From assembly GCA_020851455.1 (NCBI GenBank), contig JADZCT010000033.1, forward strand, positions 124,001 through 188,000: DNA of 64,000 nucleotides, given 5' to 3'. The DNA comes from Gemmatimonadaceae bacterium (lineage in GTDB: Bacteria > Gemmatimonadota > Gemmatimonadetes > Gemmatimonadales > Gemmatimonadaceae). This document shows, piece by piece, positions 3,614 to 61,800 of the stretch. Below the pieces are notes generated by a model that was given only the letters and a program-made list of their open reading frames with translations, was not told the origin of the DNA and made no database searches. Positions within the stretch are counted from its first letter, which is position 1, and each line of letters opens with the position of its first letter. The position numbers and the translations under genes were made by a program.

Positions 3614-3648
3614 ACAGCTGGGTACGCCAGCGGGTTGACAGCGGGGTC
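3601..3648. repeat. Two-copy 24-bp tandem direct repeat between divergent genes
   Basis: Units at 3601-3624 and 3625-3648 both begin CGCCAGCGGGTT and differ at only three positions. The first unit contains part of the spacer and the -35 region of the sigma-28-like promoter reading to the left. The second unit duplicates that -35 half without a -10. It could be a regulator-binding site or a simple duplication. Confidence 0.6.
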
Positions 3649-3676
3649 CGCCTGCCAGCGGCCGATGCTAAGGGCA

Positions 3677-4771
3677 ATGGCACCAGATACGATGGCTGCT
3701 GCCGGACTGCCCGAAGCGCTTGTCCGCGAGGCGCCGGTGGCGGTTCTCGTGTACGACGTGGAGAGTGGCGCCTGTACGGCGACGAGCCGCGGGGCGGATG
3801 CGATGCTCGGCGTAGGTGCAGATGGGCTCACGGCCCCACCGCTCGTGGCTGGGGCGTGGTGGAAGCCGCCCGCGCTGATTGATGCCATGCGCGACTCGTT
3901 GGCGTCCGGCACTACCGTGGCGCACGTCGAGGGCGTGACTGCTCCGGGAGGCGCGGCCATGATCCTGTCCTACCGCATCCAGCCAGCCGCCGCGGATGGC
4001 CGCGCGTTGCTGTTCACATGGGTAGAGGACGTTACGCATCGCGATGATTGCGGTGAATGGCGGATCGCGGCTGAACGAAATGACGTTGTCGTCGGGGTGG
4101 TCGGCGACATCGCCCATCAGTTCGACAACCTGCTGACGGTGATCACGAGCTACGGCGGCCTGATGCGCCATGCGATGCCGGCCGACGATCCATCGCGAGC
4201 GGACCTGGATGAGATCCTGAGCGCGGCCGAGTCGGCAATCGCGCTGTCGGCGGAGTTCAGGACACTGCGGCGCACGCGCGGGGGGCGTGTCGAGCCGGTG
4301 GATCTTGGCGAAGTCGTCCTGCGGGTCGTGCGCATCCTGAAGCGGCTGGCCGGGCCGGGCGCGTCGCTGCGGGTGCAGCCGCCGCCCGGCGGCGGTTGCG
4401 TCGTTGAGGCCAACCCTGCGGACGTCGAGCATGCACTCGTCAATGCGCTGCTGCTGGCAAGGGAACTCGCTGACGGGCAAGGCGTGCTGGATCTGTCGGT
4501 GCAACGCCGCGAGGGAGGCCAGGGCGGCGAATGCTGCGTGTTGATCGGCCTCCCGCAGCCGGTTGCGGCTCCGGGCGATACGTCGCGACTGAATGGCCTT
4601 GCGGCCTCGTTCCTGCGGGGGCCAGCGTCGGCCAGCAGGTACGGTAGCGGGTTATCGCTTGCGGAGCGGGTCGTGCGCGGGTGCGGCGGAAGTCTGCGCA
4701 TCGCGGCGCCTTCAGGCGCTGCAGCGACGGTGGAACTGGCGTTTCCGGCGGAACTGCCGCGGGGGCGCTGA
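3677..4771 (+). CDS. Degenerate sensor histidine kinase-like protein
   Basis: About 364 residues from the ATG at 3677; alternatives are ATG 3665, ATG 3692 and TTG 3635. The N-terminal region (about 100 residues) is PAS-like. It is followed by an H-box, DIAHQFDNLLTVI, of the HisKA type shared with HDFNNLLT kinases. The rest should be the ATP-binding domain, but the N-box region reads HALVNALLLAREL and no clear DxGxG box is visible. ATP binding may therefore be lost or altered. It precedes cheA by 128 bp. It may serve as a phosphotransfer or scaffold protein for nearby response regulators. Confidence 0.6.
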   Translation: MAPDTMAAAGLPEALVREAPVAVLVYDVESGACTATSRGADAMLGVGADGLTAPPLVAGAWWKPPALIDAMRDSLASGTTVAHVEGVTAPGGAAMILSYRIQPAAADGRALLFTWVEDVTHRDDCGEWRIAAERNDVVVGVVGDIAHQFDNLLTVITSYGGLMRHAMPADDPSRADLDEILSAAESAIALSAEFRTLRRTRGGRVEPVDLGEVVLRVVRILKRLAGPGASLRVQPPPGGGCVVEANPADVEHALVNALLLARELADGQGVLDLSVQRREGGQGGECCVLIGLPQPVAAPGDTSRLNGLAASFLRGPASASRYGSGLSLAERVVRGCGGSLRIAAPSGAAATVELAFPAELPRGR

Positions 4772-4899: not shown

Positions 4900-7140
4900 G
4901 TGGACATGGACGCTTCCCTGGACAACAGCGACATCGTCAAGGATTTCCTGATCGAGAGCTACGAAGGGCTCGACCAGGTTGACCGCGATCTTGTGGCACT
5001 CGAAGACCTGCCCTCCGATACGGAACTGCTGAACCGCATCTTCCGATGCGTTCACACCGTCAAGGGAACCTGCGGGTTCCTGGGGTTCTCGAAGCTCGAG
5101 GCGGTGACGCACGTTGGCGAGAGCCTGCTCTCGAAGCTGCGCGACGGCGTGCTGGTCGTGACGCCCGGGCTTGCGAGTGCGCTTCTCTCGCTCGTTGATG
5201 CGATTCGCGAGATGCTCGGGCACATCGAGGCCGACGGCTCGGAAGGCGACGGGGACTACATCGCGCTGACTACGGAGCTGAATCGGTTCCTCGCCGCGGC
5301 CGCTCCGCCAAACCCGCAGCAGGCGCAATCAGCGAGCCCGCCTTCGGCGGCGCCGGATCTGCCGTCTGTGGCGTCAACGCACGCCGTTGGCACCCCGCAA
5401 GCGCCGGCGCGCGCGTCAACCGCGGTTCACGACGCCGCTGAAGCCGGAGCAGATGGCAAGAGTGGCGGCGTCGCGGACACGAGCATTCGCGTTGACGTCG
5501 GCCTGCTCGACAAGCTGATGACGGCGGTCGGTGAGCTGGTGCTCGCGCGCAACCAGATCCTTCAATACGCCGCGGCCAGCTCCCAGGGGACGGCTTTCCT
5601 CGCAGCCACGCAACGGCTGAACCTGCTGACCACGGAGCTGCAGGAAGGGGTGATGAAGACCCGGATGCAGCCCATCGGGAATATCTGGAGCAAGCTCCCG
5701 CGGGTCGTGCGCGACCTATCGGTTGCGTGCGGCAAGCAGATGCGCCTCGAGATGGACGGCCAGGAGACCGAGCTCGACAAGACTATAATCGAAGCCATCA
5801 AGGATCCGCTCACGCATATCGTCCGCAACGCAGTGGATCACGGGATCGAAGCGCCGTCCGAGCGTGTGGAGCGCGGCAAGGCTGCGGAGGGCGTGCTGCA
5901 ACTGCGCGCCTTCCATGAGGGCGGGCAGGTCAACATCGAGATCACGGACGATGGGCGCGGACTCGATCCCGAGCGGCTCAAGGCCAAGGCGGTTGAAAAG
6001 GGTTTCCTCGGCGCCGAGCATGCGCAGAGACTGAGCGACCGCGAGGCGTTGAATCTCATCTTTGCCGCCGGCTTCTCGACGGCAGCGAAGGTCACGAACA
6101 TTTCCGGGCGTGGCGCGGGAATGGACGTAGTTCGCTCGAACATCGAGCGCATCGGTGGGACGGTTGACGTCCAGAGCGTACTCGGCCAGGGCGCCACCGT
6201 GCGGATCAAGATTCCACTCACGCTCGCCATCATCCCGGCGCTCGTAGTGTCGTGCTCAGGCGCGCGCTACGCGATTCCGCAGGTGAATCTCGTCGAACTG
6301 GTGCGGCACGAGGCGCGCGATGGTGGTTTGGGCCTGGAGCGCATTCACGGCGCGCCTGTGTACCGGCTGCGCGACAACCTCTTGCCGCTCGTGTTTCTGC
6401 GGAGCGCCCTCGGCGCGGACGCCAATGAGGCGGAGGCGCTCAACATCGTCGTGCTCCAGGCCGACGGGCACATCTTCGGGCTCGTCGTGGACCAGATCAA
6501 TGACACTACCGAGATCGTCGTGAAGCCGCTCAGCAAGCACTTGCAGGGAATCGCGACCTTTGCGGGCGCGACAATCATGGGTGACGGGCGGGTTGCGCTG
6601 ATTCTCGACACGATGGGCCTTGCGCAGAACGGTCACGTCATCGCCGACAGCACAGATCGCGCGGTGCGCGAGCAGGCGTGCAAGGTCGAAGAGGGCGCCT
6701 CGCGTCAGACGCTGCTCATCTGTGGCAGCGGCGATGGGCGGCGTGTTGCGATCCCGCTCTCGAGCGTCGCGCGACTGGAGATCTTCCGCCGTTCGCTCAT
6801 CGAGTGGACCGGCGAGAACGAGGTGGTGCAGTATCGGAATCAGATTCTGCCGCTCCTGCCTCTCTCGCGCCTCGTGGGCCTCACGGCGAACATCTCCGAT
6901 GCGGAATCGGTGCCCGTTGTGGTGTATGGCGATTCAGGGCGCGCGGTGGGGCTCAAGGTGGACAGCATCCTCGACATCGTGGAGGAGTCCGTCAACCTCG
7001 AGCACGCGATTGGACGCGAAGGAGTTCTGGGTGCTGCAGTCGTGCAAGCGAAGGTCACGGACGTGCTCGACATCGCGGGCATCGTGCGGCGAGGGGCGCC
7101 GTGGCTCGAAGACAACACCGATCAGCGTGAGGTCGCCTGA
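4900..7140 (+). CDS. cheA: Chemotaxis histidine kinase CheA with two CheW-like domains
   Basis: Central kinase of the chemoreceptor array, 746 residues from the GTG at 4900 (an in-frame ATG lies at 4906). The P1/HPt domain carries phospho-acceptor H52 in VHTVKGTCGFLGF. An Ala/Pro-rich linker covers about 130-190. The P3 dimerisation domain is at about 198-255. The P4 ATPase (about 256-440) has HIVRNAVDHGIE, DDGRGLD and ISGRGAGMD. Two CheW-like modules follow, at about 441-578 and 603-732, where most CheA proteins have one. No separate P2 domain is obvious. It heads cheA-cheW-MCP-cheY-cheB-cheR-cheX and would phosphorylate CheY and CheB. Confidence 0.97.
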   Translation: MDMDASLDNSDIVKDFLIESYEGLDQVDRDLVALEDLPSDTELLNRIFRCVHTVKGTCGFLGFSKLEAVTHVGESLLSKLRDGVLVVTPGLASALLSLVDAIREMLGHIEADGSEGDGDYIALTTELNRFLAAAAPPNPQQAQSASPPSAAPDLPSVASTHAVGTPQAPARASTAVHDAAEAGADGKSGGVADTSIRVDVGLLDKLMTAVGELVLARNQILQYAAASSQGTAFLAATQRLNLLTTELQEGVMKTRMQPIGNIWSKLPRVVRDLSVACGKQMRLEMDGQETELDKTIIEAIKDPLTHIVRNAVDHGIEAPSERVERGKAAEGVLQLRAFHEGGQVNIEITDDGRGLDPERLKAKAVEKGFLGAEHAQRLSDREALNLIFAAGFSTAAKVTNISGRGAGMDVVRSNIERIGGTVDVQSVLGQGATVRIKIPLTLAIIPALVVSCSGARYAIPQVNLVELVRHEARDGGLGLERIHGAPVYRLRDNLLPLVFLRSALGADANEAEALNIVVLQADGHIFGLVVDQINDTTEIVVKPLSKHLQGIATFAGATIMGDGRVALILDTMGLAQNGHVIADSTDRAVREQACKVEEGASRQTLLICGSGDGRRVAIPLSSVARLEIFRRSLIEWTGENEVVQYRNQILPLLPLSRLVGLTANISDAESVPVVVYGDSGRAVGLKVDSILDIVEESVNLEHAIGREGVLGAAVVQAKVTDVLDIAGIVRRGAPWLEDNTDQREVA

Positions 7141-7142
7141 CA

Positions 7143-7598
7143 ATGTCCGACATGCAGCAATACTGCACGTTCGTGCTCGACGACTTCCTCGTGGGCGTGG
7201 AAGTGGGGCGGGTCCAGGAGATCATCCGCTACCAGGAGATGACGCCCGTGCCACTGGCGCACCGCGTTGTCCAGGGCTTGATCAACCTGCGCGGGCAAAT
7301 CGTCACGGCGCTCGATCTGCGCCGCCGCCTCGGGCTGCGCGAGCGGCCTGCTGGCCGGCACCCCACGAACGTCGTGGTGCGCACCACTGACGGCGCGGTC
7401 AGCTTCCTGGTGGATGAAATCGGGGATGTAGTCGAGGTGGACGACGGCTCATTCGAACGGCCGCCCGAGACGCTGGGTGGTATCGCACGCCAGTTGATAG
7501 TTGGTGCGCACAAGCTGCGCGACCGCCTGCTGCTGGTACTCGATGCCGACCGCGCTGCGAACCTCCGCGTGGACGGAGAGGAGGAACGCTCTGGCTAG
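7143..7598 (+). CDS. cheW: Chemotaxis coupling protein CheW
   Basis: Adaptor of 151 residues linking chemoreceptors to CheA. It is a single CheW domain: the N-terminal strand CTFVLDDFLVGVEVGRVQEI, then GLINLRGQIVTALDLR, FLVDEIGDVVEV and LLLVLDADR are the usual blocks. It starts 2 bp after the cheA stop and 72 bp before the MCP gene, so the three form one transcription unit. The size is normal for the family. Confidence 0.95.
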   Translation: MSDMQQYCTFVLDDFLVGVEVGRVQEIIRYQEMTPVPLAHRVVQGLINLRGQIVTALDLRRRLGLRERPAGRHPTNVVVRTTDGAVSFLVDEIGDVVEVDDGSFERPPETLGGIARQLIVGAHKLRDRLLLVLDADRAANLRVDGEEERSG

Positions 7599-7670
7599 AA
7601 CGCATGCCAACCCGGTCGCCTGGCGTAGTCCCTTCTTCTGTTCGCAACCCTTCAATCACGGTAGAGATCA

Positions 7671-9332
7671 ATGAAGCTCTCCATTCGACAGCAACTCCTT
7701 GGCGCGTTCGGGGTGACTCTCGCGGTCTTGCTCGGCGTGTCGCTCTTCCAGATACAGAAGATCCGCAGTGGGAACGAGAAGGCGGGAGTACTGCAGGCAA
7801 ACGTGGCAAAGCAGGATCTTACCGGCACGATCGCGACCAATTTCGCCCTTGGACGCCTCGCGATCTACCGAGCCCTGGCATCGGCGCCCGCGCAATATGA
7901 GGGGTTGGGCAGAGAGCTCGACAGTCTATCGCGCGCCACGCAAGCCAACATTGATTCACTGGCGAAGATTACGACGGGCGAAACCGCGGTATCGGTGAAG
8001 GAACTGGCGCCCGCCTGGAAGACATACGCGGACGCGCGCGGCGAGGGAATGCGGCTGATTCGCGCGGGCAGGCCTGACGAAGCCAAGAAAGTGATAACTG
8101 GCGCGGCGGCGGCCGCGTTTGCCATCGTAAACGAGAAGAACGCGAAGGTTACCCTCGCGATCACCAAAGACGCGGCAGACACATACGCGGCGGTGCAGGC
8201 AGAGGCGACGCGTGTCCTCTGGACCGTGACGATTGTCATCGCCCTGGTTGTCGTTGGCGTGATCGTCCTTGCCCTCTGGACCGCCGGGAAGATCACGAGG
8301 CCCCTGAACGAGACCGTGAACGTCCTCCAGCACGTCGCCGACGGCGACCTCACCCCCCGCCTCGTCGTGCGCTCCGAAGACGAAATCGGGCAGATGGGCG
8401 TGGCGCTCAACACGGCGCTCGAGTCCGTAAGCACGGCGATGGCGGCAATCGGGCAGAACGCGCAGGCACTGGCTTCATCGTCCGAAGAGCTGAGCGCCGT
8501 AAGCACGCAGATGGGCGGCAACGCAACTGAAACCTCCTCTCAGGCGAGCGTGGTGAGCGCCGCCGCCGAGCAGGTGAGCCGGAACGTGCAGACGGTGGCG
8601 ACCGGCACGGAGGAAATGAGCGCCAGCATCCGGGAGATCGCAAAGCACGCGACCGACGCCGCCAAGGTGGCCAACGCGGCGGTGACCGTAGCCGAGAGCA
8701 CGAACGCCAGCATCGGGAAGCTCGGCGAGTCGAGTGTCGAGATCGGCAACGTCATCAAGGTGATCACATCCATCGCGCAGCAGACGAACCTCCTCGCGCT
8801 GAACGCGACCATCGAAGCGGCGCGTGCCGGTGAGGCTGGCAAGGGCTTCGCGGTAGTGGCGAACGAAGTGAAGGAACTGGCCAAGGAGACAGCCAAGGCC
8901 ACGGAGGACATCAGCCAGAAGATCGAAGTGATTCAGGGCGATACGAAGTCGGCGATCGAGGCAATCACGCAGATCACCACGATCATCGCGCAGATCAACG
9001 ACGCGCAGACGACGATCGCGGGCGCCGTCGAAGAGCAGACAGCCACGACGAACGAGATGGCTCGCAACGTGGAGGAGGCGGCCAAGGGGAGCGCCGAGAT
9101 TGCGCAGAACATCACCGGGGTGGCGCAGGCAGCGGAGAGCACCTCGAGCGGAGCGGGCAACTCGCAGGTCGCGGCCAATGAGCTCGCGCGGATGGCAGCG
9201 GAGCTGCACGAGATCGTATCGCGGTTCAAGTTCGACCAGCAGGTGAAGGCCACGGCGCAGGCCGACGTGGTAGACCTGCGGTCACGGAAGGCCTCGGCCG
9301 GGGCAGCGCCAGCCGCGCGCCGCGCGGCGTAG
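7671..9332 (+). CDS. Methyl-accepting chemotaxis protein
   Basis: Transmembrane chemoreceptor of 553 residues. TM1 is at about residues 8-28, and a short periplasmic helical sensor (about 29-183) resembles the four-helix-bundle type. TM2 is at about 184-204, HAMP at about 205-257, and the coiled-coil signalling domain fills the rest. The hairpin tip [19 protein letters not shown] and the [14 protein letters not shown] segment are canonical. No C-terminal pentapeptide for CheR/CheB tethering is visible; the protein ends in an Ala/Arg tail. It is the only receptor gene in the window. The ligand is unknown. Confidence 0.95.
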
Positions 9333-9504
9333 GCGGAGCGGTTGATGCACCTGAGTTCACAACAGGCCCGGGGCGGCCGGCGCGGATGCGTGAGCGTTCG
9401 CGCCGGCTGCCCCCGGCAGCTGGTCGCCGTTCGAGGCCGGCCTCGCCCGGCGCTGGCAGCCGTTGGACCGCGGACTCTACGTCGAACCTGTGGATGGTGC
9501 CCCG

Positions 9505-9876
9505 ATGCGCGCACTGATCGTTGACGACTCGCGGGCCGTCCGTGCCATGATTGGCCGGATAGTACGCGAACTGGGCTTCTCGGTTGTGGAGGCAGGCAAC
9601 GGAGCCGAGGCGCTTGCCAGGCTGGCCGAAAGCGGCACGGCGGATGTGGCGCTGGTGGACTGGAACATGCCCGAGATGAACGGGGTCGAGTTCGTCGTCG
9701 CGGCGCGCGCGGTGCCTGCGTACGCGTCCATGCGCATCGTGATGGTGACCTCCGAGAGCGAGATGGGGCGCGTAGCGTCCGCGCTGGACGCCGGCGCCAA
9801 CGAGTACCTGATGAAGCCGTTCGATGCCGAAGCGCTCCGGGAGAAGCTGGCGCTCGTGGGCGTCGGGGCGGCCTGA
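9505..9876 (+). CDS. cheY: CheY-type single-domain response regulator
   Basis: Receiver-only protein of 123 residues from the ATG at 9505; a GTG at 9463 would add 14 residues. It has D7/D8, phospho-acceptor D52 in VDWNMPEMNG, the conserved Thr in MVTSES and Lys in YLMKPF. There is no output domain, as expected for the CheY that binds FliM. It lies 130 bp after the MCP gene and 3 bp before cheB, with CheX and a CheZ-like protein downstream as candidate phosphatases. Confidence 0.9.
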   Translation: MRALIVDDSRAVRAMIGRIVRELGFSVVEAGNGAEALARLAESGTADVALVDWNMPEMNGVEFVVAARAVPAYASMRIVMVTSESEMGRVASALDAGANEYLMKPFDAEALREKLALVGVGAA

Positions 9877-9879
9877 ACC

Positions 9880-11028
9880 GTGCCGCGGATCCGCGTCCTG
9901 GTGGTTGACGATGCTGTCGTGGTGCGGCGCGTCGTGACCGGTGCGCTGGCGGAAGACCCTGACATCGAGGTGGTGGGCGCCGCGGCGAACGGACGCATAG
10001 CGCTTGCCAAGATCGAGCAGGTGAACCCCGATGTCGTGACGATGGACATTGAGATGCCGGAGATGTCGGGGCTCGAGGCGCTGCGTGAACTGCGCAAGAC
10101 GCACCCGGCGCTCCCGGTGATCATGTTCAGCACGCTCACCGAGCGTGGCGCAACCGCAACGCTCGAAGCGCTGGCCCTCGGCGCCAGCGACTATGTCACG
10201 AAGCCGGCGAACGTCGGGAGCGTCGCCGCGGCGCAGCAGCGCATCCGGGAGGATCTGATCCCGAAGATGAAGGCGTTGTGCGCGCGCAAGCTCCTCCTGG
10301 TGTCGCGCGCCGTAGGCGGTCCCGCCGCCGCGGGAATGCGCCCGACGCCAACCGGCCAGCCACGCATACAGCCGGCAGCACGCAGCGGACTCGCGCCTCA
10401 GCGTGTTGACGTGGTTGCGATCGGCGTGTCCACCGGCGGGCCGAACGCGCTCTCGACATTGCTGTCCGGCCTGCCCGGGAATCTGCCGGTCCCGATCGTG
10501 ATCGTGCAGCATATGCCACCGCTGTTCACCAGGCTTCTTGCCGACCGCCTGCGCCAGTCGTCGCGGCTGGATGTTCGCGAAGGCGTGAACGGCGGCGCTC
10601 TGGCTCCGGGCAGGGTATGGATCGCGCCGGGCGATCATCATATGACCGTGCGGCTCAGCGGTGGTGGGGTGCGGCTGGCGCTGAACCAGGAGCCACCGGA
10701 AAACTCCTGCCGCCCAGCGGTTGACCCGCTCTTCCGATCCGTTGGCGCGACATACGGGGCGAACGCGCTTGGCGTCATCCTCACCGGGATGGGCAAGGAT
10801 GGATTGCGGGGCTGCGAGGAGTTCGTGGAGCGTGGCGCCGCCGTGATTGCGCAGGACGAGGCCACGTCGGTGGTGTGGGGGATGCCCGGATTCGTCGCAA
10901 ACGCGGGCCTGGCTGACCGTGTGCTGCCGTTGCATGAGATCGCCGGCGAGATCGCGCGGCGTACGTTGGCGGGGCGTGGCGGCAACGCCGCGGTCGAGCC
11001 CGTTGCGGCGGGAACCACTGCCCGATGA
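9880..11028 (+). CDS. cheB: Chemoreceptor methylesterase CheB
   Basis: Receptor glutamate methylesterase and deamidase, 382 residues, GTG start. An N-terminal receiver domain (D10/D11, phospho-acceptor D56 in MDIEMPEMSG) is followed by a linker and the catalytic domain. The catalytic Ser is in IGVSTGGP, His in VIVQHMPP and Asp in ILTGMGKDG. It overlaps cheR by 4 bp, so methylation and demethylation enzymes are made together. CheA would activate it by phosphorylation. Confidence 0.96.
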   Translation: MPRIRVLVVDDAVVVRRVVTGALAEDPDIEVVGAAANGRIALAKIEQVNPDVVTMDIEMPEMSGLEALRELRKTHPALPVIMFSTLTERGATATLEALALGASDYVTKPANVGSVAAAQQRIREDLIPKMKALCARKLLLVSRAVGGPAAAGMRPTPTGQPRIQPAARSGLAPQRVDVVAIGVSTGGPNALSTLLSGLPGNLPVPIVIVQHMPPLFTRLLADRLRQSSRLDVREGVNGGALAPGRVWIAPGDHHMTVRLSGGGVRLALNQEPPENSCRPAVDPLFRSVGATYGANALGVILTGMGKDGLRGCEEFVERGAAVIAQDEATSVVWGMPGFVANAGLADRVLPLHEIAGEIARRTLAGRGGNAAVEPVAAGTTAR

Positions 11029-11873
11029 CGACGACAACGCCCATCGCCGACGCGGACTTCGACTTCGTGCGGGCCATCGTCCGCGCAGACTCGGCAATTG
11101 CGCTCGAGGCAGGGAAGGAGTACCTCGTCGAGTCGCGGCTGCTGACCCTGGCGCGGAGCCAGGGGCTCGATTCGGTGGGTGCGCTCGTTGCGCAGCTCCG
11201 GCAGCGGCCTGCCAGCGACCTGAGGTACAAGGTTGTCGAGGCAATGACAACCAACGAGACGTCGTTCTTTCGCGACATTACTCCGTTCGACGCGCTTCGC
11301 ACGCACATCATCCCCGATCTGCTCGTTCGCCGGGCGCAGTGCCAGCAGATCCGCATCTGGTGCGGCGCGGCCTCGACGGGCCAGGAACCGTACAGCCTTG
11401 CGATGCTCCTGCGCGAGCACTTTCCCGCGCTGAGTTCGTGGAAAGTGCAGATCACCGCGACCGACATCTCGCGGGAAGTGCTCGAGAAGGCAAGGGCTGG
11501 TCGCTACGGCCAACTGGAGGTCAACCGCGGACTCCCCGCGCCGCTCCTCCTGAAGTATTTCGAGCGTGACGGAGTGCATTGGCAGATCAAGCCGGTGCTG
11601 AAGAGCATGGTGTCGTTTCGCGAGATGAACCTTGTCGGGCCGTGGATGATCGGGGAAGCCGATATTGTGCTGCTGCGAAACGTCCTCATCTACTTCGAAG
11701 TGGACGTCAAGCGCCAGATCCTCGGGAACATCAGGCGCGTAATGCGGCCCGACGGCTACCTGCTGCTCGGCAGCGCGGAGTCCACGATGAACATTGACGA
11801 CAACTACAAGCGGGTGCCGGTGGGCCGGGCCAATGCATATCAGGCCGCGGCGGCACAGGAGCGGGCAGCATGA
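11025..11873 (+). CDS. cheR: Chemotaxis methyltransferase CheR
   Basis: SAM-dependent methyltransferase that methylates receptor glutamates, 282 residues. The N-terminal helical CheR domain contains TTNETSFFRD. The Rossmann domain has IRIWCGAASTGQEPYSLAM for SAM binding and later NVLIYFE, YLLLGSAES. The length and block order are canonical. It overlaps cheB upstream and cheX downstream by 4 bp each. Confidence 0.96.
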   Translation: MTTTTPIADADFDFVRAIVRADSAIALEAGKEYLVESRLLTLARSQGLDSVGALVAQLRQRPASDLRYKVVEAMTTNETSFFRDITPFDALRTHIIPDLLVRRAQCQQIRIWCGAASTGQEPYSLAMLLREHFPALSSWKVQITATDISREVLEKARAGRYGQLEVNRGLPAPLLLKYFERDGVHWQIKPVLKSMVSFREMNLVGPWMIGEADIVLLRNVLIYFEVDVKRQILGNIRRVMRPDGYLLLGSAESTMNIDDNYKRVPVGRANAYQAAAAQERAA

Positions 11874-12322
11874 CCGACCTGCAGAGCGCGATCACCCCGA
11901 CGATTGCCGACATCTGGGAGTCGGTGCTTGGCCTCGCGGTGGCGCAGGTGGACGACGCCGTAGAGCCCGGGTTTGCCGCCGTCGCCGGTTGTGTGCACCT
12001 GACCTCGGATCCGCCAGCGGCAATCGTTATAGAGTGCGACGAGCCATTCGCGCGGCTCATCGCATCGCGCATGTTCGGCGCACCCGAAGATTCGCTCGCC
12101 GACGCCGATGTATACGATGCGATCGGCGAGATGGCGAACATGGCGGCCGGGAACCTCAAGGCGGCGCTGGCCATCTCCGCGAACGTCTCGCTGCCGATCG
12201 TGACCCACGGCACGGGTATCGCGACGCGCCTGCCGAATGGCAACTGCGCTGCGCAGCAAGGGTTCCGCTGCGGCGAGGCGAAGTTCACGGTGCGTGTGTT
12301 AGAGGGCCCGGCGTCTGCATGA
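11870..12322 (+). CDS. cheX: CheX-like CheY-P phosphatase
   Basis: Predicted phosphatase that removes phosphate from CheY-P, 150 residues, matching CheX in size and pattern. The family signature, acidic-hydrophobic-Gly-Glu-x-x-Asn, is present as DAIGEMANMAAGNLK; Glu and Asn are the catalytic pair in CheX/CheC. The C-terminal SLPIVTHGTG also fits. It overlaps cheR by 4 bp. A second, unrelated candidate phosphatase (CheZ-like) lies at 18 kb. Confidence 0.8.
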   Translation: MTDLQSAITPTIADIWESVLGLAVAQVDDAVEPGFAAVAGCVHLTSDPPAAIVIECDEPFARLIASRMFGAPEDSLADADVYDAIGEMANMAAGNLKAALAISANVSLPIVTHGTGIATRLPNGNCAAQQGFRCGEAKFTVRVLEGPASA

Positions 12323-12465: not shown

Positions 12466-12987
12466 ATGGGCCGCCACAGGAGTGACGGAACCCAACCCGC
12501 GCTGCGGCTCGTGGGCGGTGGGCTGGGTGGGCCGGACGGTACGCCGCCGTCGCCCACCCGCAAGAGGTGCGCGCTGGTGGTGGACGACGAGCGTCAGGTG
12601 ATGGTGGTCATCTGCCGGATCGTCGAGAGCATGGGCTGGGCCGCGGCGGGGTTTCGCGATCCCCGCCTTGCGCTCGCCTCGCTGGAGCGCAATCCTGGCG
12701 CGTACGACATCATCCTTACCGACCTGCGGCTCGGTGACGGAAACGGCCTCGATGTGGCGGCTGGGGCAGTGCGACTGTGCCCGGCCATGCCCGTTGTGCT
12801 GCTGTCTGGCGCGCCGCTTCCGGCTACCGCCTGGGAGGTAGCCGCGGACGCGGGCGTCCGGATGGTCATCTACAAGCCCTTTCGCATCCATGAGGTGATG
12901 GATGCCGTCCGGAGCCTCGCCGGAGGCGGCGAGGATCGGCCGCCGTCAGGAGCGAACGTTGCCGTCGTCGGTTCGCGGAAGCAGTGA
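12466..12987 (+). CDS. Single-domain response regulator
   Basis: A receiver domain (about residues 35-150) inside a 173-residue protein, starting at the ATG at 12466 behind GGGAGGGG. An upstream in-frame start at 12433 is less likely. It has VVDDE, phospho-acceptor Asp in ILTDLRLGDGNG and Lys in IYKPF. There is no DNA-binding output domain; the N- and C-terminal tails are low complexity. It lies directly upstream of a hybrid kinase and is probably its partner. Confidence 0.8.
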   Translation: MGRHRSDGTQPALRLVGGGLGGPDGTPPSPTRKRCALVVDDERQVMVVICRIVESMGWAAAGFRDPRLALASLERNPGAYDIILTDLRLGDGNGLDVAAGAVRLCPAMPVVLLSGAPLPATAWEVAADAGVRMVIYKPFRIHEVMDAVRSLAGGGEDRPPSGANVAVVGSRKQ

Positions 12988-12991
12988 CGCC

Positions 12992-14263
12992 GTGGCGCAC
13001 GGGTTGACACTCACCGGCGCTGTACGCCACCAGGCCGCGACTGACGCGGCTGGCGTGGCGACCCCGGACGATGGCATCCGCGACGCGGCGCGGCTGCAGC
13101 ACCGGATCGGCGAACTCGAGCGCCAGCTGCAGCAGAGCCAGCGGCTCGAGATACTCGGCCGGCTGGCCGGCGGCGTAGCGCACGACTTCAACAACCTCCT
13201 CACGATCATCACCGGCCATGTCGAGTTGCTGGCGCTCGCGCCATCGCTGCCGCCCGACGTGCGGGACGCACTCGAGCAGGTGCGCGAGGCCGCCGGAAGG
13301 GCGGCTCAGCTCACGGGCCAGCTCCTCGCGTTCAGCAGGCAGAGCGCCGCCGAGTCGGAGTCCGTGGATGTGAACCGCCTCGTGCGCAGCGAGAGCAGCA
13401 TGCTGCGGAGGGTCGTTGACGAAGACATCCACATCCATACGCACCTCGAAGATGAACTGCCCGAGGTGCGCTGCGATGGCGGCCGGTTGGCGCAGGTGAT
13501 AATGAACCTCGTGCTCAATGCGCGCGATGCCATGCCGTCGGGCGGCACGCTCTCCGTTTCCACTGCAGTCGTAACGGTGCGGCAGGACGACGCGAGGCAT
13601 CCGGGCGTGTTGCAGCCAGGCGAGTACGTCCTCCTGACCGTTGGCGACACCGGCGTCGGGATGTCCGAAGAGGAGAGAGCGCGCGCCTTCGAGCCGTTCT
13701 TCACGACCAAGGGCGAGGGTCGCGGAACGGGGCTTGGCATGGCGACCGTTCAGGCAATCGTGAGGGAAAGCGACGGATACATCACCCTCGCGAGCGCCGT
13801 TGGCGCTGGCACGACGGTGCTCGTCTATCTCCCGGTCGGGGAGCGACACGACCGGGCGGTGGGGGCAGGCGAGGAGCCGCAAGAAGCCGCGGGCCGCGGC
13901 GAGACCGTGCTGCTCGTCGAGGACGACGCCGCCGTGCGCGCGTTCGTGGGCGCCATCCTTACGGATCACGGGTATAGCGTGATTGCCGCCGCGGACGGGG
14001 CGGAGGCGTTCGGTCAGCTCGACTCTGCGCTCGCCCGGGTGGACCTGGTGGTGACCGATGTCGTCATGCCCCACAGGAGCGGTCGCGCCGTCGTCGCGCA
14101 CGCGCAGCGGCTGAACCCGCGCGTACGTGCGCTGTACGTCAGCGGGCACACGGAAGACGCAATCGTGCGTCAGGGAATCCTGCGCGACGACGTGGTGCTG
14201 CTGCAGAAGCCGTTTTCTCCGTCAACCCTGCTGCGCGCGGTGCGCGAGGCGTTGGGCCCGTGA
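12992..14263 (+). CDS. Hybrid sensor histidine kinase with C-terminal receiver
   Basis: Two-component kinase of about 423 residues from the GTG at 12992; an ORF start at 12902 overlaps the previous gene and looks less natural. The N-terminus is short and has no membrane segment, so it is probably cytoplasmic. The H-box is GVAHDFNNLLTIITGH, the N-box NLVLNARDAM, the G1 box DTGVGM, the F-box FEPFFTTK and the G2 box GTGLGM. A receiver domain (VEDDAA, VVTDVVMPHRSG, LQKPFSP) occupies the last 120 residues. The following caspase-like gene overlaps its stop as TGATG, tying that gene to this signalling operon. Confidence 0.87.
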   Translation: MAHGLTLTGAVRHQAATDAAGVATPDDGIRDAARLQHRIGELERQLQQSQRLEILGRLAGGVAHDFNNLLTIITGHVELLALAPSLPPDVRDALEQVREAAGRAAQLTGQLLAFSRQSAAESESVDVNRLVRSESSMLRRVVDEDIHIHTHLEDELPEVRCDGGRLAQVIMNLVLNARDAMPSGGTLSVSTAVVTVRQDDARHPGVLQPGEYVLLTVGDTGVGMSEEERARAFEPFFTTKGEGRGTGLGMATVQAIVRESDGYITLASAVGAGTTVLVYLPVGERHDRAVGAGEEPQEAAGRGETVLLVEDDAAVRAFVGAILTDHGYSVIAAADGAEAFGQLDSALARVDLVVTDVVMPHRSGRAVVAHAQRLNPRVRALYVSGHTEDAIVRQGILRDDVVLLQKPFSPSTLLRAVREALGP

Positions 14264-16422
14264 TGCGCGCGGGGCCGGCCGTGATACGCCGCGAGGGCAG
14301 GGCCTGGCTCTCCATCGCACTGACGCTGGCCGGGCTCTGCGGCGCACGGTCCGATGTTCGCGCCCAACGTTCGCCGGGCCAGCAGCGGGGTCGCGATGCT
14401 CCCGGATGGACACTGGGCTCGACAGCCGAAGAGGTGCGCCGTGCCGAAGGGGAAGCGGACCGGGTGGACCTGCTCGCTTCGCTCGGATACCAGGCCTGGC
14501 ACTACGGCCAGGCGTGGGTGCGCATCGCGCTTTCAGGCGATACCGTCATCGGGTGGTGGAATCCCGGTGCGCGTCTCGCTGTGTACCTGCGGCCGGGGGC
14601 CGACACGGGCGTCGGCATCGGCGTTGCGCGCGCGTCCACACTGAGTGACGTCGTGCGGCTGCGCGGCACGCCGGACGGTTACACGCCGGACCGTCTGCGT
14701 GGCGCCATAGTCCTGCGCTACGGGGTGACGTCGCTCGTGATTGACGCGGCGACCCGCAGAGTCGTTGGACCGGATGCTCCGGAGGGCGGTGCGAGCGAAG
14801 GTGTTGGGCTGACGGGTGAAGCGCGTTCGAAGGACCCGCCGCGCGGGCCCGCAACGCTGAGGGCGCAGGCCACGCTTGCAACCGCGGGCCGTGACGGCCG
14901 GGTGGATGCCGACGGATCCATGGCCCTCGACATCACCGTCTCCAATGGCGGCCCGGCCACGGCGCGGATGCTGGCGCTGAGCGTGAAGGGCGCTGGCGCC
15001 GCGATCCAGCCGGATGGCGCATGGCCATCGCTCGACTCCCTTGCCGCCGGCGCGGCGTACACGTTCCGTCTTGCGCTCATGGTGAGCGACGTTCCGCGCG
15101 ACACCGTCCTCGACATCGCCATCGCCATCAGCGAAGCCGGGCGATTCGATCTGGACCCGCCGCTTCGGGTGCGCGTGCCGCTGCGGCCAGCGCTACCGCC
15201 CCGTCTGGTCCTGAAGGAAGTGGCGGTCGAGGGTCGTCCCGGCGAGAGCCGGATCGAGCCGCGCCAGGTGGTGGACATTGCGGTTCGTATCGAGAACGCA
15301 GGGGAAGGGCAGGCGCGCGACGTGAGGGCGATCGTCGTGCCCGGTGCCGGCATTCACCTTGTGCCGGGCGCGCGCGACGACTCGATCCTGGGCGCGATGG
15401 CTCCGGGCGACGCCCGCGAACTGCGCTTCTCGGCGTTCAGCGATTCCCGCGCGGCCGGGTTCCCCGTCACTGTAATCGTGCGCGAGGCACGCGCACGATT
15501 CGACACCAGCTTCACGCTTCCGCTCGTGCTCGACCGGACGACGCGGTCGCGGGTTGAGCTCCTCCGTCCGCGCGACAGCCCGCTGGATGCACGCCCGACG
15601 GCGCCGGCCCTCGTATCGAGCGTTGACACAGGGGTGCCGCGCGCGGCGCTCCGGCCCGGTACGGTCGCGGTCGTGCTGGGTGTCGAGCAGTATGAGCACG
15701 CGCCGGCCGCGCGCTTCGCGCAACGTGACGCGGCCGTGTTTCGTGAGTACGCGCAGGCTCTGTTCGGCACCGGCGACGACGCGTCACGGCTGTTCTACGG
15801 GGTCAACGAAGAGGTGTCGCTCAGCACGATGCGCAAGCTGTTCGACCCCGGCGGCTGGTTAGCGCGAAGGGCCGATGCGACTACCGACGTCGTGGTGTTC
15901 ATCGCATCGCATGGAACGGTGGACGTCAAGGCGAGGGCGGCGTACCTGCTTCCGAGCGACGCCGACCCGGCGTATCCCGCGCAGACAGGAGTGGCGCTCG
16001 ACTCGCTGCTCGACCGGCTCGGGGCGCTCCCGGCGCGGTCGGTGACCGTCTTCCTCGATGCGTGCTTCAGCGGAACGACGCGCGATGGATCCTCACTGGT
16101 TCCGTGGACCCGTGACGTAAGCGTCAGCATCGAACACCCCGCCCTCAAGTACCCGAACATGGTCGTCCTGGCGGCAGCAGGCGCGGGCGAGACAGCCATG
16201 GAGTGGGCTCAGCAGCGCCATGGCCTCTTCACCTATTGGCTGCTCGACGGCATGCGGGGCGCCGCGGACGCCAACGCCGACGGCATCGTGGACGCTGGCG
16301 AGCTGGGTGACTATGTAGCGCGCCGGGTGCGCACGACTGCCGCGGAGATCGGTCGCGAGCAGTCGCCGCAGCTCATCACGCGCAACCGCCGCATGCCGCT
16401 AGTATGGCTGCCGCCGGGATGA
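14263..16422 (+). CDS. Secreted caspase-family (C14-like) cysteine protease
   Basis: Predicted exported caspase-fold protease of 719 residues from the ATG at 14263. A signal or anchor segment lies near residues 15-35. A unique N-terminal region runs to about 195. Two CARDB/Ig-like beta domains follow (about 200-310 and 315-425). The caspase domain (about 465-715) begins VAVVLGVEQYEH. The His-Cys dyad is in FIASHGTVD (H550) and FLDACFSG (C601). An EF-hand-like loop, DANADGIVDAGEL, lies near 669-681, as in other bacterial caspase-type proteins. It is coupled to the hybrid kinase upstream and to a DUF4384-like gene downstream. The substrate is unknown. Confidence 0.85.
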   Translation: MRAGPAVIRREGRAWLSIALTLAGLCGARSDVRAQRSPGQQRGRDAPGWTLGSTAEEVRRAEGEADRVDLLASLGYQAWHYGQAWVRIALSGDTVIGWWNPGARLAVYLRPGADTGVGIGVARASTLSDVVRLRGTPDGYTPDRLRGAIVLRYGVTSLVIDAATRRVVGPDAPEGGASEGVGLTGEARSKDPPRGPATLRAQATLATAGRDGRVDADGSMALDITVSNGGPATARMLALSVKGAGAAIQPDGAWPSLDSLAAGAAYTFRLALMVSDVPRDTVLDIAIAISEAGRFDLDPPLRVRVPLRPALPPRLVLKEVAVEGRPGESRIEPRQVVDIAVRIENAGEGQARDVRAIVVPGAGIHLVPGARDDSILGAMAPGDARELRFSAFSDSRAAGFPVTVIVREARARFDTSFTLPLVLDRTTRSRVELLRPRDSPLDARPTAPALVSSVDTGVPRAALRPGTVAVVLGVEQYEHAPAARFAQRDAAVFREYAQALFGTGDDASRLFYGVNEEVSLSTMRKLFDPGGWLARRADATTDVVVFIASHGTVDVKARAAYLLPSDADPAYPAQTGVALDSLLDRLGALPARSVTVFLDACFSGTTRDGSSLVPWTRDVSVSIEHPALKYPNMVVLAAAGAGETAMEWAQQRHGLFTYWLLDGMRGAADANADGIVDAGELGDYVARRVRTTAAEIGREQSPQLITRNRRMPLVWLPPG

Positions 16423-17354
16423 CTTGCGTGTTTGGCTGGCTTCCGACGCTTCCTGGCGCGCGGCTCACCTTGGTGGCGTACGCCGTGCTCGGCTGTGCCG
16501 CGGTGGGAGCGCCGGCCGGACAGCGTGCAGCCCCGGCTTCGGCGCCCGTGCCTCCAGGCGACAGCGTGTGGGTAGTGGTGGAGCGCGAGGCCGCGCTGGG
16601 GAGCGATGGCGTCGCCGCTGAGGTCAGCCGAAGCGCGCTGTACGGCGCACTCGCCGACGCGGTCGCGCAAGCGGGCGGCGCCATCGTGCAGAGCAGTTCG
16701 GTAGCGGTACGCAGCGATTCCGGCGGCGGCATCCACGATGCGTACGTGAGGTCGCTTCACGTGGAAGGCCGCGGCATCGCGATCGGGTGGACCGTGCTGT
16801 CGGAGGGATGGAGGGTGCGGCGAACAGCGGGCGGCGCCGGCGTGCCCACGTACGCCATCCGCGTGCGCGTGCTCGTCAGGCGCGAACGCGACGGCCCTGA
16901 CCCCGCGTTCACCGCGTCCCTGCGGCTGTCGTCGCCGACGTGCGTCGTGCGCGGGCCGGCGCTCACAGATGGCGAGGAGATTCAGGTTGCCGTGGCGGCG
17001 AGCGCCGATGCGAAGTGGATCATCCTGAGCATGGCCGACGACTCCGTCAGCATCCTCGCGCCCAATGGCATCGAGCGCGAGGTGGCGAGCGAAGCCGGCG
17101 AGTGGCGGGCCGTCCCGGCCGACTCGTTGCGTGCCATCGGCCTGCGGTTCCGCTGTTCGCTCGATCCATCGCGGAGCGCGAGCCATGAGTCCATCATTGC
17201 CGTGGCAACGCGCGCCCTTGTGGCGCCACCGGTGGCTGGGGAAGGCGCGCGGCGGAAGGTTGGCCTGGAGGAGTTCAACCGGTGGCTTGCGGCGATCCCG
17301 CCCAGGGAGCGGTCGCTGGCCACGGCCAGCCTCGAGGTACGGAAACAGCCATGA
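16419..17354 (+). CDS. DUF4384-like exported protein
   Basis: Protein of 311 residues with a hydrophobic N-terminal signal (about 5-30, Cys-containing, ending near APAGQ). The start is placed at the ATG overlapping the caspase stop by 4 bp. The segment from about 180-215 (DGEEIQVAVAASADAKWIIL...SILAPN) has the DUF4384 pattern: a polar request, an uncharged beta strand, then a phrase ending in a proline-asparagine. The function of DUF4384 is not established. The gene is sandwiched between a caspase and an LPP20-type lipoprotein, which suggests one envelope-associated module. Confidence 0.6.
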   Translation: MTCVFGWLPTLPGARLTLVAYAVLGCAAVGAPAGQRAAPASAPVPPGDSVWVVVEREAALGSDGVAAEVSRSALYGALADAVAQAGGAIVQSSSVAVRSDSGGGIHDAYVRSLHVEGRGIAIGWTVLSEGWRVRRTAGGAGVPTYAIRVRVLVRRERDGPDPAFTASLRLSSPTCVVRGPALTDGEEIQVAVAASADAKWIILSMADDSVSILAPNGIEREVASEAGEWRAVPADSLRAIGLRFRCSLDPSRSASHESIIAVATRALVAPPVAGEGARRKVGLEEFNRWLAAIPPRERSLATASLEVRKQP

Positions 17355-17385
17355 GGGCCGATACTGGGAGTCAGGGGAACTGTCC

Positions 17386-17964
17386 ATGAGACTCCGCTTA
17401 GCCCTTGCAACGACGGTGGCCGCGTGCGTGACGTCGGCCTGTGGCGCCGCGCGCACCGGCGGCCCGGCAGCTGCGAGCCGTGCGCCGCTGCGTGACATGC
17501 CCGGCTGGTATCGTTCGCCGCCGAAGTCCGACGGCGACTGGGTCTTTGCGCCGGCAACGGCAACGTCGAAGGATCTGCAGATGGCCTTCGATCGCGCCGA
17601 GATGGAAGGCCGCCTTGGCATTGCGACGCAGCTCGAGGTCAAGTATGCGGCGCTTACGAGGCGCTTCTCCGAAGAGACGGGGCTTGCCAGCGACGCTGAA
17701 TTGCTCAAGGAGTATGAGCAATCGTACAAGGCGGTCGTTAGCCAGGTGCTCGTCGGCAGCCGCTCGCGCGAGCGCAAACTGGTGCTGGAGGGTAGCGTGT
17801 ACCGCGCGTGGGTGTTGATGGAGATGCCAGTGGGCGAAGCCAGCAGGCAACTCGTCGAACGCATGGCGCAGCAGCAGGCCGCGTACGCGCGCCTGCGCGC
17901 AACCGAGGCCTATAAGGAACTGACGCGGGAAGTGGAGAAGTACGAGGCATCGCGGAAGAAGTGA
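17386..17964 (+). CDS. LPP20-like lipoprotein
   Basis: Small predicted lipoprotein, 192 residues from the ATG at 17386. The N-terminus MRLRLALATTVAACVTSACG has a plausible signal and lipobox Cys at about 19. The mature part begins PGWYRSPPKSDGDWVFAPAT, the usual opening of LPP20-type domains, then AxAxAxxxLA-like helices and a long C-terminal coiled coil. The FlgP proteins of Vibrio and Campylobacter, needed for outer-membrane flagellar structures, are LPP20-type, so a motility role is possible. A longer upstream reading frame exists but lacks a signal and overlaps the previous gene. Confidence 0.7.
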   Translation: MRLRLALATTVAACVTSACGAARTGGPAAASRAPLRDMPGWYRSPPKSDGDWVFAPATATSKDLQMAFDRAEMEGRLGIATQLEVKYAALTRRFSEETGLASDAELLKEYEQSYKAVVSQVLVGSRSRERKLVLEGSVYRAWVLMEMPVGEASRQLVERMAQQQAAYARLRATEAYKELTREVEKYEASRKK

Positions 17965-18011
17965 CGAACGCGTGCGGGCGGCATCGCACACAATTGCATC
18001 CACGTGGAGGA

Positions 18012-18581
18012 ATGATGCTGTTCGAGCCCGGCGGAACGGAGTGCTCTTCGGGTGCGCTGATGCAGGCGTACACCGAGATTCGGGTGATGCTCGAGAACCT
18101 CAGGCATAGCCGCGATTCCCTCCGTCAGGCGGCGAGCGAACGCCTCCGTCACACTACAGAAAAGTTGCGCGAGGTGACCTCCGTTACCGAACAGGCCGCC
18201 ACCGACATACTGGACCGCCTGGACGGCGCGTTGCGGCTCGTTGACGAACTGGACGGACTGGACACCGGCGGCAGTGAGGCGGCAGCCGCGGCGCGCAACC
18301 GGCTGCGTGACGAACTCTACGTTGCCCAGGGCGGGCTGCAGTTTCAGGATATCGCGGCGCAGCAACTGGCGCATGCCACGCAGATGATCGAGCAAATCGA
18401 GGTGCGGCTTGCGTCGGTCGCCGAACTCCTCGATCCGCGCGCGCTGGTGGCGTCCAGTCCGGCGCTGCCGGCCGAGCCGGCAGACTCGAGGTCGCTGGCA
18501 TTCGCGCCAACGGCAACCATGTCGAACCCCGAGGCCCGCCAAGCCCTTGCTGACAGGATCTTCGAGGCGCCCGCGGCCTGA
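18012..18581 (+). CDS. cheZ: CheZ-like CheY-P phosphatase
   Basis: Helical protein of 189 residues, starting at ATG 18012 or 18015 behind GGAGG; a GTG at 17961 overlaps the lipoprotein gene. The central helix reads GGLQFQDIAAQQLAHATQ. Asp113 and Gln117 occupy the spacing of the catalytic Asp143 and Gln147 of E. coli CheZ (QDFQDLTGQ). The long amphipathic helices before it fit the CheZ hairpin. No clear C-terminal CheY-binding helix is seen. Its presence with cheX gives the locus two candidate CheY phosphatases. Confidence 0.72.
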   Translation: MMLFEPGGTECSSGALMQAYTEIRVMLENLRHSRDSLRQAASERLRHTTEKLREVTSVTEQAATDILDRLDGALRLVDELDGLDTGGSEAAAAARNRLRDELYVAQGGLQFQDIAAQQLAHATQMIEQIEVRLASVAELLDPRALVASSPALPAEPADSRSLAFAPTATMSNPEARQALADRIFEAPAA

Positions 18582-58807: not shown

Positions 58808-58827
58808 ATCCGGCCCGGCTGCCGGAT
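58808..58827 (-). terminator. Hairpin at the end of the flgL-fliW-glycosyltransferase unit
   Basis: ATCCGGC (58808-58814), loop CCGGCT, GCCGGAT (58821-58827) sits directly at the stop codon of the TPR-glycosyltransferase gene. On the minus strand it is followed by GGCACGTTTT, a short U-run. It partly abuts the -35 of the next promoter. Confidence 0.45.
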
Positions 58828-61800
58828 CAGGAGATGCCGAGCGCTGCAACCAGCAGCTCCGCTTGGCTTTGCCACGGCAGCTCCTGCATGAGAGCAGCAG
58901 CAGTCGCACCGCGCCTCGCCGCACCGCTGCGGTCAACATACGCCGCCTCGAGATGCGCGATCAGTTCGTCCGGATCCGACTCGCCCCAGCAGAACGTTCC
59001 GGTGTACGGCGCAGGAGCCGTCGCGATCGGCGCCTGGTGTTCGAGCACGTAACAGGTGTCCGCGCCAATGAGGTTGAGGTGGCCGGTGTTGGCCGAGAGC
59101 ACGACTGGCACACCACAGGCCATGGCTTCCATCGCGACCAGGTTGGTGCCGCCTTCACACCGGTTCGGGAACACGGCGATGTCAACCTCGTGCAGCACCG
59201 AGGCAATGGTTGCGTGTGACTGCAGGCCCAGGTCCAGCACGGCGTCCCGAGGTACCCCCTGGCGCGCCAGCCACTCCGTCACGCGAAGCCGGCCATCGGC
59301 GATCTCGGGCAGGCCGTCCACGTATCCGGTGGCCTCGATCCCTGCCATCGTTTGCGGCCACATGTTGTGCCATGCGGTCACCAGCACCGCGTCGTCGTGG
59401 CGGGCGTGGAAGCGCCGGAATGCCTCGACTACGATATCCTGTCCCTTCCGGTACTCCAGCTTCCCGCCGCTGAACACCAGGAACCGGTCGCCGAGCAGGC
59501 CGGCGCGTGGGGCTGGGTGAAATACGGCAGGGTCAACGCCCTGCAGCACCAGCGAGACATTCGTAATCCCGACTGCCCTCAGGAGCTCGGCGTTCCACGT
59601 CGAGCCGGCGATGATGCCGTCGTAACTCCTGGCGCGGGCAATCGCGGCCGCATCCCATGCCGTGTCCTCGAAGAAAATGACCCCCGTGTGCGCCTTCCCG
59701 CGTGGCGTGGCCGCGCTGGAATCCCCAAGGGCATGGTTCCCGAGGGCAATGAGCCGATGCCGCGCGTTGCCCGTCGTTGACCGCGCCACGCGCAGGCGCG
59801 CCGCGGCCGCCTGCTGGATGGGCGACATCCCTCCGAATGCGGGTGCCGTCCGAAGAACCGGCTCCACGTGTTCGCTGGACCGCAGCGCCAGCGCGAGGTG
59901 CATGCCGTACGTCCCCCAGCCGGACTGCAATCCAACAGGCCAGCTGATCTCGATCTCTTCGCGCACGCTAACCGGCGCTGCGCGAACCGGCGCTGCGTCG
60001 CGAACCGGCGCTGCGCGAACCGGCGCTGCGTCGCGAAGCCGCCCGAGGTCGTCGCGTACGCTCGCGATCACCTCTCCCCATGCGCCGGGGCGCGGCTGTC
60101 GGTAGAGCCGGACCGACGAATACCACGGAGAGTCGGTCCGCCCGAGCATCCAGCGCCAATCCGGCGTGTATGGGCACAGTATCCACGTAGGAACGCCGAG
60201 CGCGCCGGCGAGGTGCGCGACCGATGTGTCAACCGTGATGACGAGGTCCAGGCCGGCCATCGCTGCGGCCGTGTCGGAGTAGTCGTGGAGGTCGTCGTCG
60301 AGGTTCAGTACGTTGCCCGGCGCATTGAGCCCCGACAGCAGCGTGGCGTCAGGGCCCTTCTGCAGGCTGACGAACGAGATGTCGCCTGAGTCGAACAATG
60401 GCCGGAGCAGGTTCAGCGGCACCGACCGGATCGCGTCCCGCTGGTGTGCCGGGTTGCCAGCCCACGCCACGCCGACGCGCAGCCGGCCACGCAGCGCCGC
60501 GACCCGCTCGCGCACCGCCCGCGCCGGGTGCGCCAGGTAACCGCCGGGATACGGTATCGTTTCGAGCGTGGTGCCGCAGAGCATCGGCAGACTCATCAGA
60601 TACGCGTACGTGTCGAAGTGCGGTACCACGTCGCCCGGCGACGCGGTGGCGTCCACGCCAGGGCAATCCTTCAGGATTCCCGCGAGCTGCGCAGGGCATT
60701 CCAGCGTCACTCGCCCGGCTCCGCGGATCTTCAACTCATTGGCGTACCTCGCAAACTGGATGACATCACCCGCGCCCTGCTCGCCCGTGATGAAGATCGA
60801 GCGGCCGTCCAGTGGCGAGCCGTCCCACTCGGGAACGTCGAACTGCCGACGCGTGAAGACGACAGAGATCAGCCGCTTCCGCGCCTCGAATGCGCGGAAC
60901 CCGTTCTCGTAGTCGCCGCGCAACAGGTCGAGCACCGCAAGGTTCCAGCTTGCGTTTCGATTGGCCGGCTCCGCGGCAAGAGCGGCGCGGTGCAGCCGCT
61001 CTGCCTCGTCGAGCGCCCCGCGTTCGAGGGCGCAGTTGCCGAGTACGTTCAGCGCTTCGGGGTGCCCCGGGCATTCGGCTTCCACTCCTGCCGCGATCGC
61101 TTCGGCCTCCGCGTGCCTGTTCATCTCCATGAGCAGGACCGCAAGGTTCACGCGGACGGTCGCGTGCCCGGGCGCCAGGGCAAGTGCTTCGTCGAACGCC
61201 GCGCGCGCAGCATCGAATCGCCGGCGCTCCTTCTCGATGATCCCCAGGTTGCTGAGCGCGTCCACGTAGGCGGGATCAACCGCCAGCGCCGCGCGCGTCG
61301 CCTCCGCGGCATCATCGAGTCGCCGCAGCCCGCGAAGCGCAATAGCGCGATTGGCCAGCGCGGTCGCGTTGCCGGGCGTGATCGCGACCGCGCGATCGTA
61401 CGCAGCCAGCGCCTCGTCACAGCGCTGCTCTCCAACAAGCACGTTGCCGAGGTCCGTCCACCACGCGGCGCGCCCCGCGTCCATGGCCACGGCGGCCGAC
61501 AGAGCCTCGACCGCTTCCGCCGGCCGCTGCAACGCTCCCATCGCCAGTCCCAGGTTGTGCTGCGCTTCCGCGTCTCCAGGGTCGAGCGCGAGCGACTCGC
61601 GAAACAGCTTCGCGGCTTCATGGTATTGCCCACCGCCCGCGAGGATCGCGCCGAGGTTGTTGAACGCTCCCGCGCACGGGGCACGCGCGAGCACCCTGCG
61701 GTAGCCGGCCACGGCGCCGTCGAGATCGCCTCTCAGGTGACATGCGATTGACTCGCGCAGGAGCGCGTCAACGTGGGGCTTTGCCACACCGATGCGGCTT

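Follow-up and report, generated by a model that had tools for sequence, protein, structure and literature searches.

A secreted caspase-fold protease, a DUF4384 protein and an LPP20-fold lipoprotein form a gene trio that tracks flagella in Gemmatimonadaceae

Here we describe a trio of neighboring genes, housed in a Gemmatimonadaceae motility island, that encode a secreted caspase-fold protease, an exported DUF4384 protein and an LPP20-fold lipoprotein, and whose long-caspase form has a strong phyletic tie to flagella; this tie holds after phylogenetic correction, and also among genomes where the trio and the motility genes are unlinked. Caspase-fold proteases are relatives of the animal cell-death proteases, and Gemmatimonadaceae are soil and water bacteria. 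Proposals for what caspase homologues do in bacteria have, to our knowledge, concerned mainly cell death, and other roles are little understood. Most likely, flagellated cells use the trio as a module for proteolysis in the envelope; a caspase-type protease may act for the swimming apparatus or for the envelope surrounding it. A conserved caspase that is exported, keeps the same envelope partners and follows flagella across the family points to a concrete and testable non-death role; additionally, the trio adds candidate envelope parts to the flagella of a phylum that has received little study.

The trio occupies positions 14263-17964 of the window (the whole 64,000-nucleotide stretch of DNA analysed, from genome G000), in a one-strand run that leads from a hybrid kinase through the caspase, DUF4384 and LPP20 genes to a CheZ-like gene (Table 1). 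The stop codon of the kinase overlaps the caspase ATG (TGATG), the caspase and DUF4384 genes share a 4-bp ATGA overlap, and 31 bp separate the DUF4384 gene from the LPP20-like gene. The sequence of the window therefore bears out the original prediction of a tightly spaced trio with the kinase coupled upstream and a CheZ-like gene downstream. A GTG at 17961, if it is the start of the CheZ-like gene, gives a 4-bp overlap with the lipoprotein gene; the likelier start is the ATG at 18012, which lies behind GGAGG and leaves a gap of 47 bp. No rightward terminator-like sites were found within 4.5-20.7 kb of the window, at whose G+C such scans are weak. The che cluster has two types of CheY-P phosphatase, CheX (11870-12322) and the CheZ-like protein with its DxxxQ motif. 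Elsewhere in the window, a 378-aa reading frame upstream of cheA (3635-4771) has no Pfam match at E 0.001, and a protein with TPR repeats and glycosyltransferase domains, adjoining flagellar genes (58827-61874), is a candidate flagellin glycosyltransferase.

Table 1. The trio and its neighbors in the window.
Feature	Coordinates	Strand	Remarks
cheA, cheW, MCP, response regulator, cheB, cheR, cheX	4900..12322	+	chemotaxis genes upstream of trio
Hybrid histidine kinase, HisKA-HATPase-REC	12902..14263	+	start codon uncertain
Secreted caspase-fold protease	14263..16422	+	719 aa; leader peptide, two BamE-like repeats, two CARDB-like domains, Peptidase_C14
Exported DUF4384 protein	16419..17354	+	311 aa; beta-alpha-alpha-beta-beta N-terminal domain and Ig-like DUF4384 beta-sandwich
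LPP20-fold lipoprotein	17386..17964	+	192 aa; lipobox Cys19
CheZ-like phosphatase	17961..18581	+	DxxxQ motif (DIAAQ)

The caspase fold with an intact His-Cys dyad, proposed from the sequence at the outset, is confirmed by a Pfam Peptidase_C14 match over residues 468-706 (E 1.3e-13, 51.6 bits against a cut-off of 21.4) and by His550 and Cys601, which are invariant among the 13 orthologues aligned. The two CARDB-like domains named alongside it also hold, being weak in the window caspase (12.5 bits) and matched by CARDB in 7 of 13 orthologues (best E 2e-7). Two further features were absent from that earlier account. The N-terminal third carries two repeats, seen by eye, of the type WTLGSSxxEVxRxQGxPxxxERLxSLGYxxWxYGxSWVRL, which we term BamE-like because a single orthologue (1/13) has a Pfam match to BamE. 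Near the C-terminus, the residues of the loop DANADGIVDAGE are spaced as in an EF-hand (D-x-N-x-D-G-x-x-x-x-x-E); acidic loops resembling it occupy the same place in most orthologues, and 5/13 orthologues match EF-hand models. Scored as an EACC1-associated caspase (NF047832), the window protein reaches 66.3 bits, below the required 140 bits.

The window copy of the second protein scores 20.3 bits for DUF4384 (PF14326), below the cut-off of 27, yet all 13 of its orthologues match the family (best E 4e-9), upholding its assignment as a DUF4384-like exported protein. In its predicted model (pLDDT 77), a beta-alpha-alpha-beta-beta arrangement at the N-terminus precedes an Ig-like sandwich at the C-terminus; Foldseek with the whole model returned no convincing relative, and VIA-align matched the C-terminal sandwich only, a common arrangement, at Z about 7-8.5. 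When the LPP20 and DUF4384 alignments were compared as profiles, no similarity emerged, so a domain shared by the two proteins is suggested only by a similar order of secondary structure. The lipoprotein has no Pfam match itself; however, LPP20 (PF02169) is matched by 14/16 of its orthologues, with two family members passing the Pfam cut-off. Its profile finds Helicobacter pylori Lpp20 (5ok8) at E 3.4e-6, and the same structure is the best fold match of its AlphaFold2 model (pLDDT 84.5, Foldseek probability 1.0), so that membership in LPP20, as originally predicted, is supported. In that model, helices 64-98 and 104-124 are followed by strands 126-135 and 138-148. FlgP is defined by a ring-forming beta-hairpin that follows the SHS2 helix and precedes the second strand (PMC12222027); this hairpin was sought at that place and is absent from the predicted model, and for this reason we do not name the lipoprotein a FlgP. 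The suggested likeness to FlgP therefore extends no further than the SHS2-like fold, which is common to Lpp20, FlgP and FlgT (PMC12222027), and membership in FlgP is not supported. The leader peptides and the lipobox predict an envelope location for all three trio proteins, in agreement with the original prediction.

Across Gemmatimonadaceae the order caspase-DUF4384-LPP20 is kept, and chance adjacency of the three genes was rejected on this ground. The long-caspase trio lies beside che genes in 3/20 genomes, namely the window genome, G171 and G029, and in each the CheZ-like gene follows the trio. G171 (L086, genus g13) resembles the window in synteny, with che genes, kinase, trio, CheZ-like gene, HDOD, motBA and flagellar genes, while in G029 (L087) the trio and the CheZ-like gene adjoin the che genes in inverted orientation. 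No che or flagellar genes appear in the flanks read of the other 17 genomes, some of them short or cut by contig ends, and the neighbors there are unrelated. A hybrid kinase borders the trio in six genomes, lying upstream in G000 and G171 and downstream in G016, G017, G125 and G186; this difference in arrangement does not bear out the earlier idea that the adjacent kinase controls the trio. In G164 the trio is interrupted, with about 4 kb between the caspase and DUF4384 genes (L150:6265-10489). In some relatives from other phyla, caspase and DUF4384 genes lie near an LPP20 relative; a member of the Aminicenantes encodes an LPP20-DUF4384 fusion protein (L103:11717-13339) that adjoins a separate LPP20 lipoprotein, near a caspase gene.

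A link to motility had first been proposed from position within the chemotaxis operon. That position proves untypical, the triplet lying mostly away from motility genes (17/20); the link itself holds through strong co-occurrence with flagella across genomes. Among 168 family genomes, LPP20 is present in 31 and FlhA in 75. The long-caspase form is found in 20 genomes, 19 of which have FlhA, the exception being G161, which is 74% complete; the short-caspase form occurs in 10 genomes, mostly of genus g23, with FlhA in two. Of the 18 genomes in the window's genus, all seven with FlhA (7/7) and none of those without it (0/11) carry the trio; in G017 the contig begins inside the DUF4384 gene, leaving the caspase out of view. 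Of the 80 genomes on an rpoB tree, 38 have neither FlhA nor the long trio, 24 have FlhA only, 18 have both and none has the trio only. The trio is thus missing from 24/42 flagellated genomes and therefore not needed for flagella in general, being at most an accessory.

Comparing four-state dependent and independent models of correlated evolution on this tree, which is built from one gene and includes many metagenome assemblies, we find dependent evolution of FlhA and the long trio (LR 28.1, p 1.2e-5). The dependence persists when the three che-linked genomes (p 0.003), genus g13 (p 0.032) or genus g1 (p 4e-4) are left out, and the short trio, run as a control, has no link to FlhA (p 0.65). In the fitted model the trio is lost far faster where FlhA is absent, with some rates sitting at their bounds. 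Independent contrasts on well-supported branches agree in 3-5 cases and oppose in none, a number too small to give significance at 0.05 in a sign test. In genus g23, the short-caspase trio is found in genomes without FlhA (L079, L151, L153, L158-L163), and the flagellated members of the genus are without it. Outside the phylum, FlhA is present in 6/12 genomes with this LPP20 type and missing in 6/12.

The history of the window's island further joins the trio to motility genes. The FlhA and trio trees agree in their main groups, among other things in grouping G000 with G171 (100/100), in nesting G029 in the genus g1 group and in setting the other g13 genomes apart; the rpoB tree conflicts with this, as there G171 and G029 join the rest of g13 and G000 falls in g1. 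Indeed, G171 shares 97% of rpoB with its genus-mates and only 42-43% of the caspase, against 84% of rpoB and 63% of the caspase with the window. Since the trio and FlhA trees agree with each other and depart from rpoB for this island, the trio and the island moved together. The che-flagellar island (window 4900-63558), which groups with that of another genus (G171), was likely transferred horizontally; a binning error is a less likely cause of its grouping against rpoB. Because trio and island genes are physically linked in G000, G171 and G029, joint transfer is to be expected there from linkage by itself and is no proof of joint function.

We put at roughly an even chance the proposal that the trio is one envelope module, kept by flagellated Gemmatimonadaceae and lost by unflagellated ones, that works as follows. 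The LPP20 lipoprotein would sit on the outer membrane, facing the periplasm, as an oligomeric scaffold onto which the DUF4384 protein would dock to form a complex, and the BamE-like and CARDB domains would hold the caspase-fold protease in place. Calcium at the EF-hand-type loop would switch the protease on, and its presumed substrates would be periplasmic or envelope proteins around the flagellum, cleaved in the course of insertion, quality control or turnover, with a possible effect on motility. A more specific version, in which a caspase complex, anchored to the outer membrane and gated by calcium, would cut envelope or flagellar proteins while the flagellum is built or shed, we consider unlikely; if true, it would be a caspase-family protease working in bacterial motility.

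The main rival to this proposal, a possible but doubtful one, is shared ecology, by which the trio would be a general envelope maintenance or stress module, lost together with flagella on a change of lifestyle and free of any mechanistic tie. The mostly unlinked position of the trio, the many flagellated genomes that do without it, and the frequent absence of FlhA beside the short trio and the relatives in other phyla all agree with such a view. However, the long trio depends on FlhA in a strictly one-sided way, with no FlhA-negative carrier on the tree over 11 changes of state; the short trio has no such dependence, and three genomes place the trio inside or beside che genes.

The SHS2-like fold common to FlgP and FlgT (PMC12222027), together with the phyletic link to FlhA and a weak match of one of 13 DUF4384 orthologues to FlgT_N (E 0.037), also brings to mind a flagellar structural accessory, in which the LPP20 and DUF4384 proteins would form a motor ring or disk like FlgP and FlgT and the caspase would be an assembly protease. 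We regard this as improbable: the FlgP hairpin is absent from the lipoprotein model, a PDB profile search (alignment A2) found no FlgT, and most flagellated relatives are without the trio. Even less probable is a cell-death or anti-phage effector, with the caspase killing the cell or damaging its envelope on infection or stress. The caspase fold would suit such a role, and the protein matches the PADLOC caspase model weakly (24 bits, E 4.6e-6), a weakness for which an anti-phage system was set aside as first choice. Yet the caspase has a leader peptide and two exported partners, PADLOC matched no other defence gene, the neighbors are housekeeping or che genes, and the trio is inherited with flagella rather than showing defence-like turnover. 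The most likely reading thus remains a module for envelope proteolysis that flagellated cells put to use.

Literature searches on DUF4384 or LPP20 together with a caspase turned up no account of such a trio. The window lipoprotein resembles H. pylori Lpp20 (HP1456; PDB 5ok8; PF02169) in fold, profile and lipoprotein signal and differs in sequence, with about 15% identity; caspase or DUF4384 partners of Lpp20 were not found in the literature searched. Campylobacter FlgP (basal disk) and Vibrio FlgT (H-ring) share with the trio the SHS2-like fold class, an envelope location and a flagellar link (PMC12222027), but the FlgP hairpin insert is missing from the lipoprotein model and the FlgT_N match is marginal. 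Closer at hand, the short-caspase trio of genus g23 and others likewise combines a caspase with LPP20, and in part of cases DUF4384, whereas it is without the long BamE-like/CARDB region and has no FlhA association. With the orthocaspases, the prokaryotic caspase homologues, the window caspase has in common the p20 domain, the His-Cys dyad and the Peptidase_C14 match; it differs from them in its leader peptide, its BamE-like and CARDB regions, its fixed DUF4384 and LPP20 partners and its phyletic tie to flagella.
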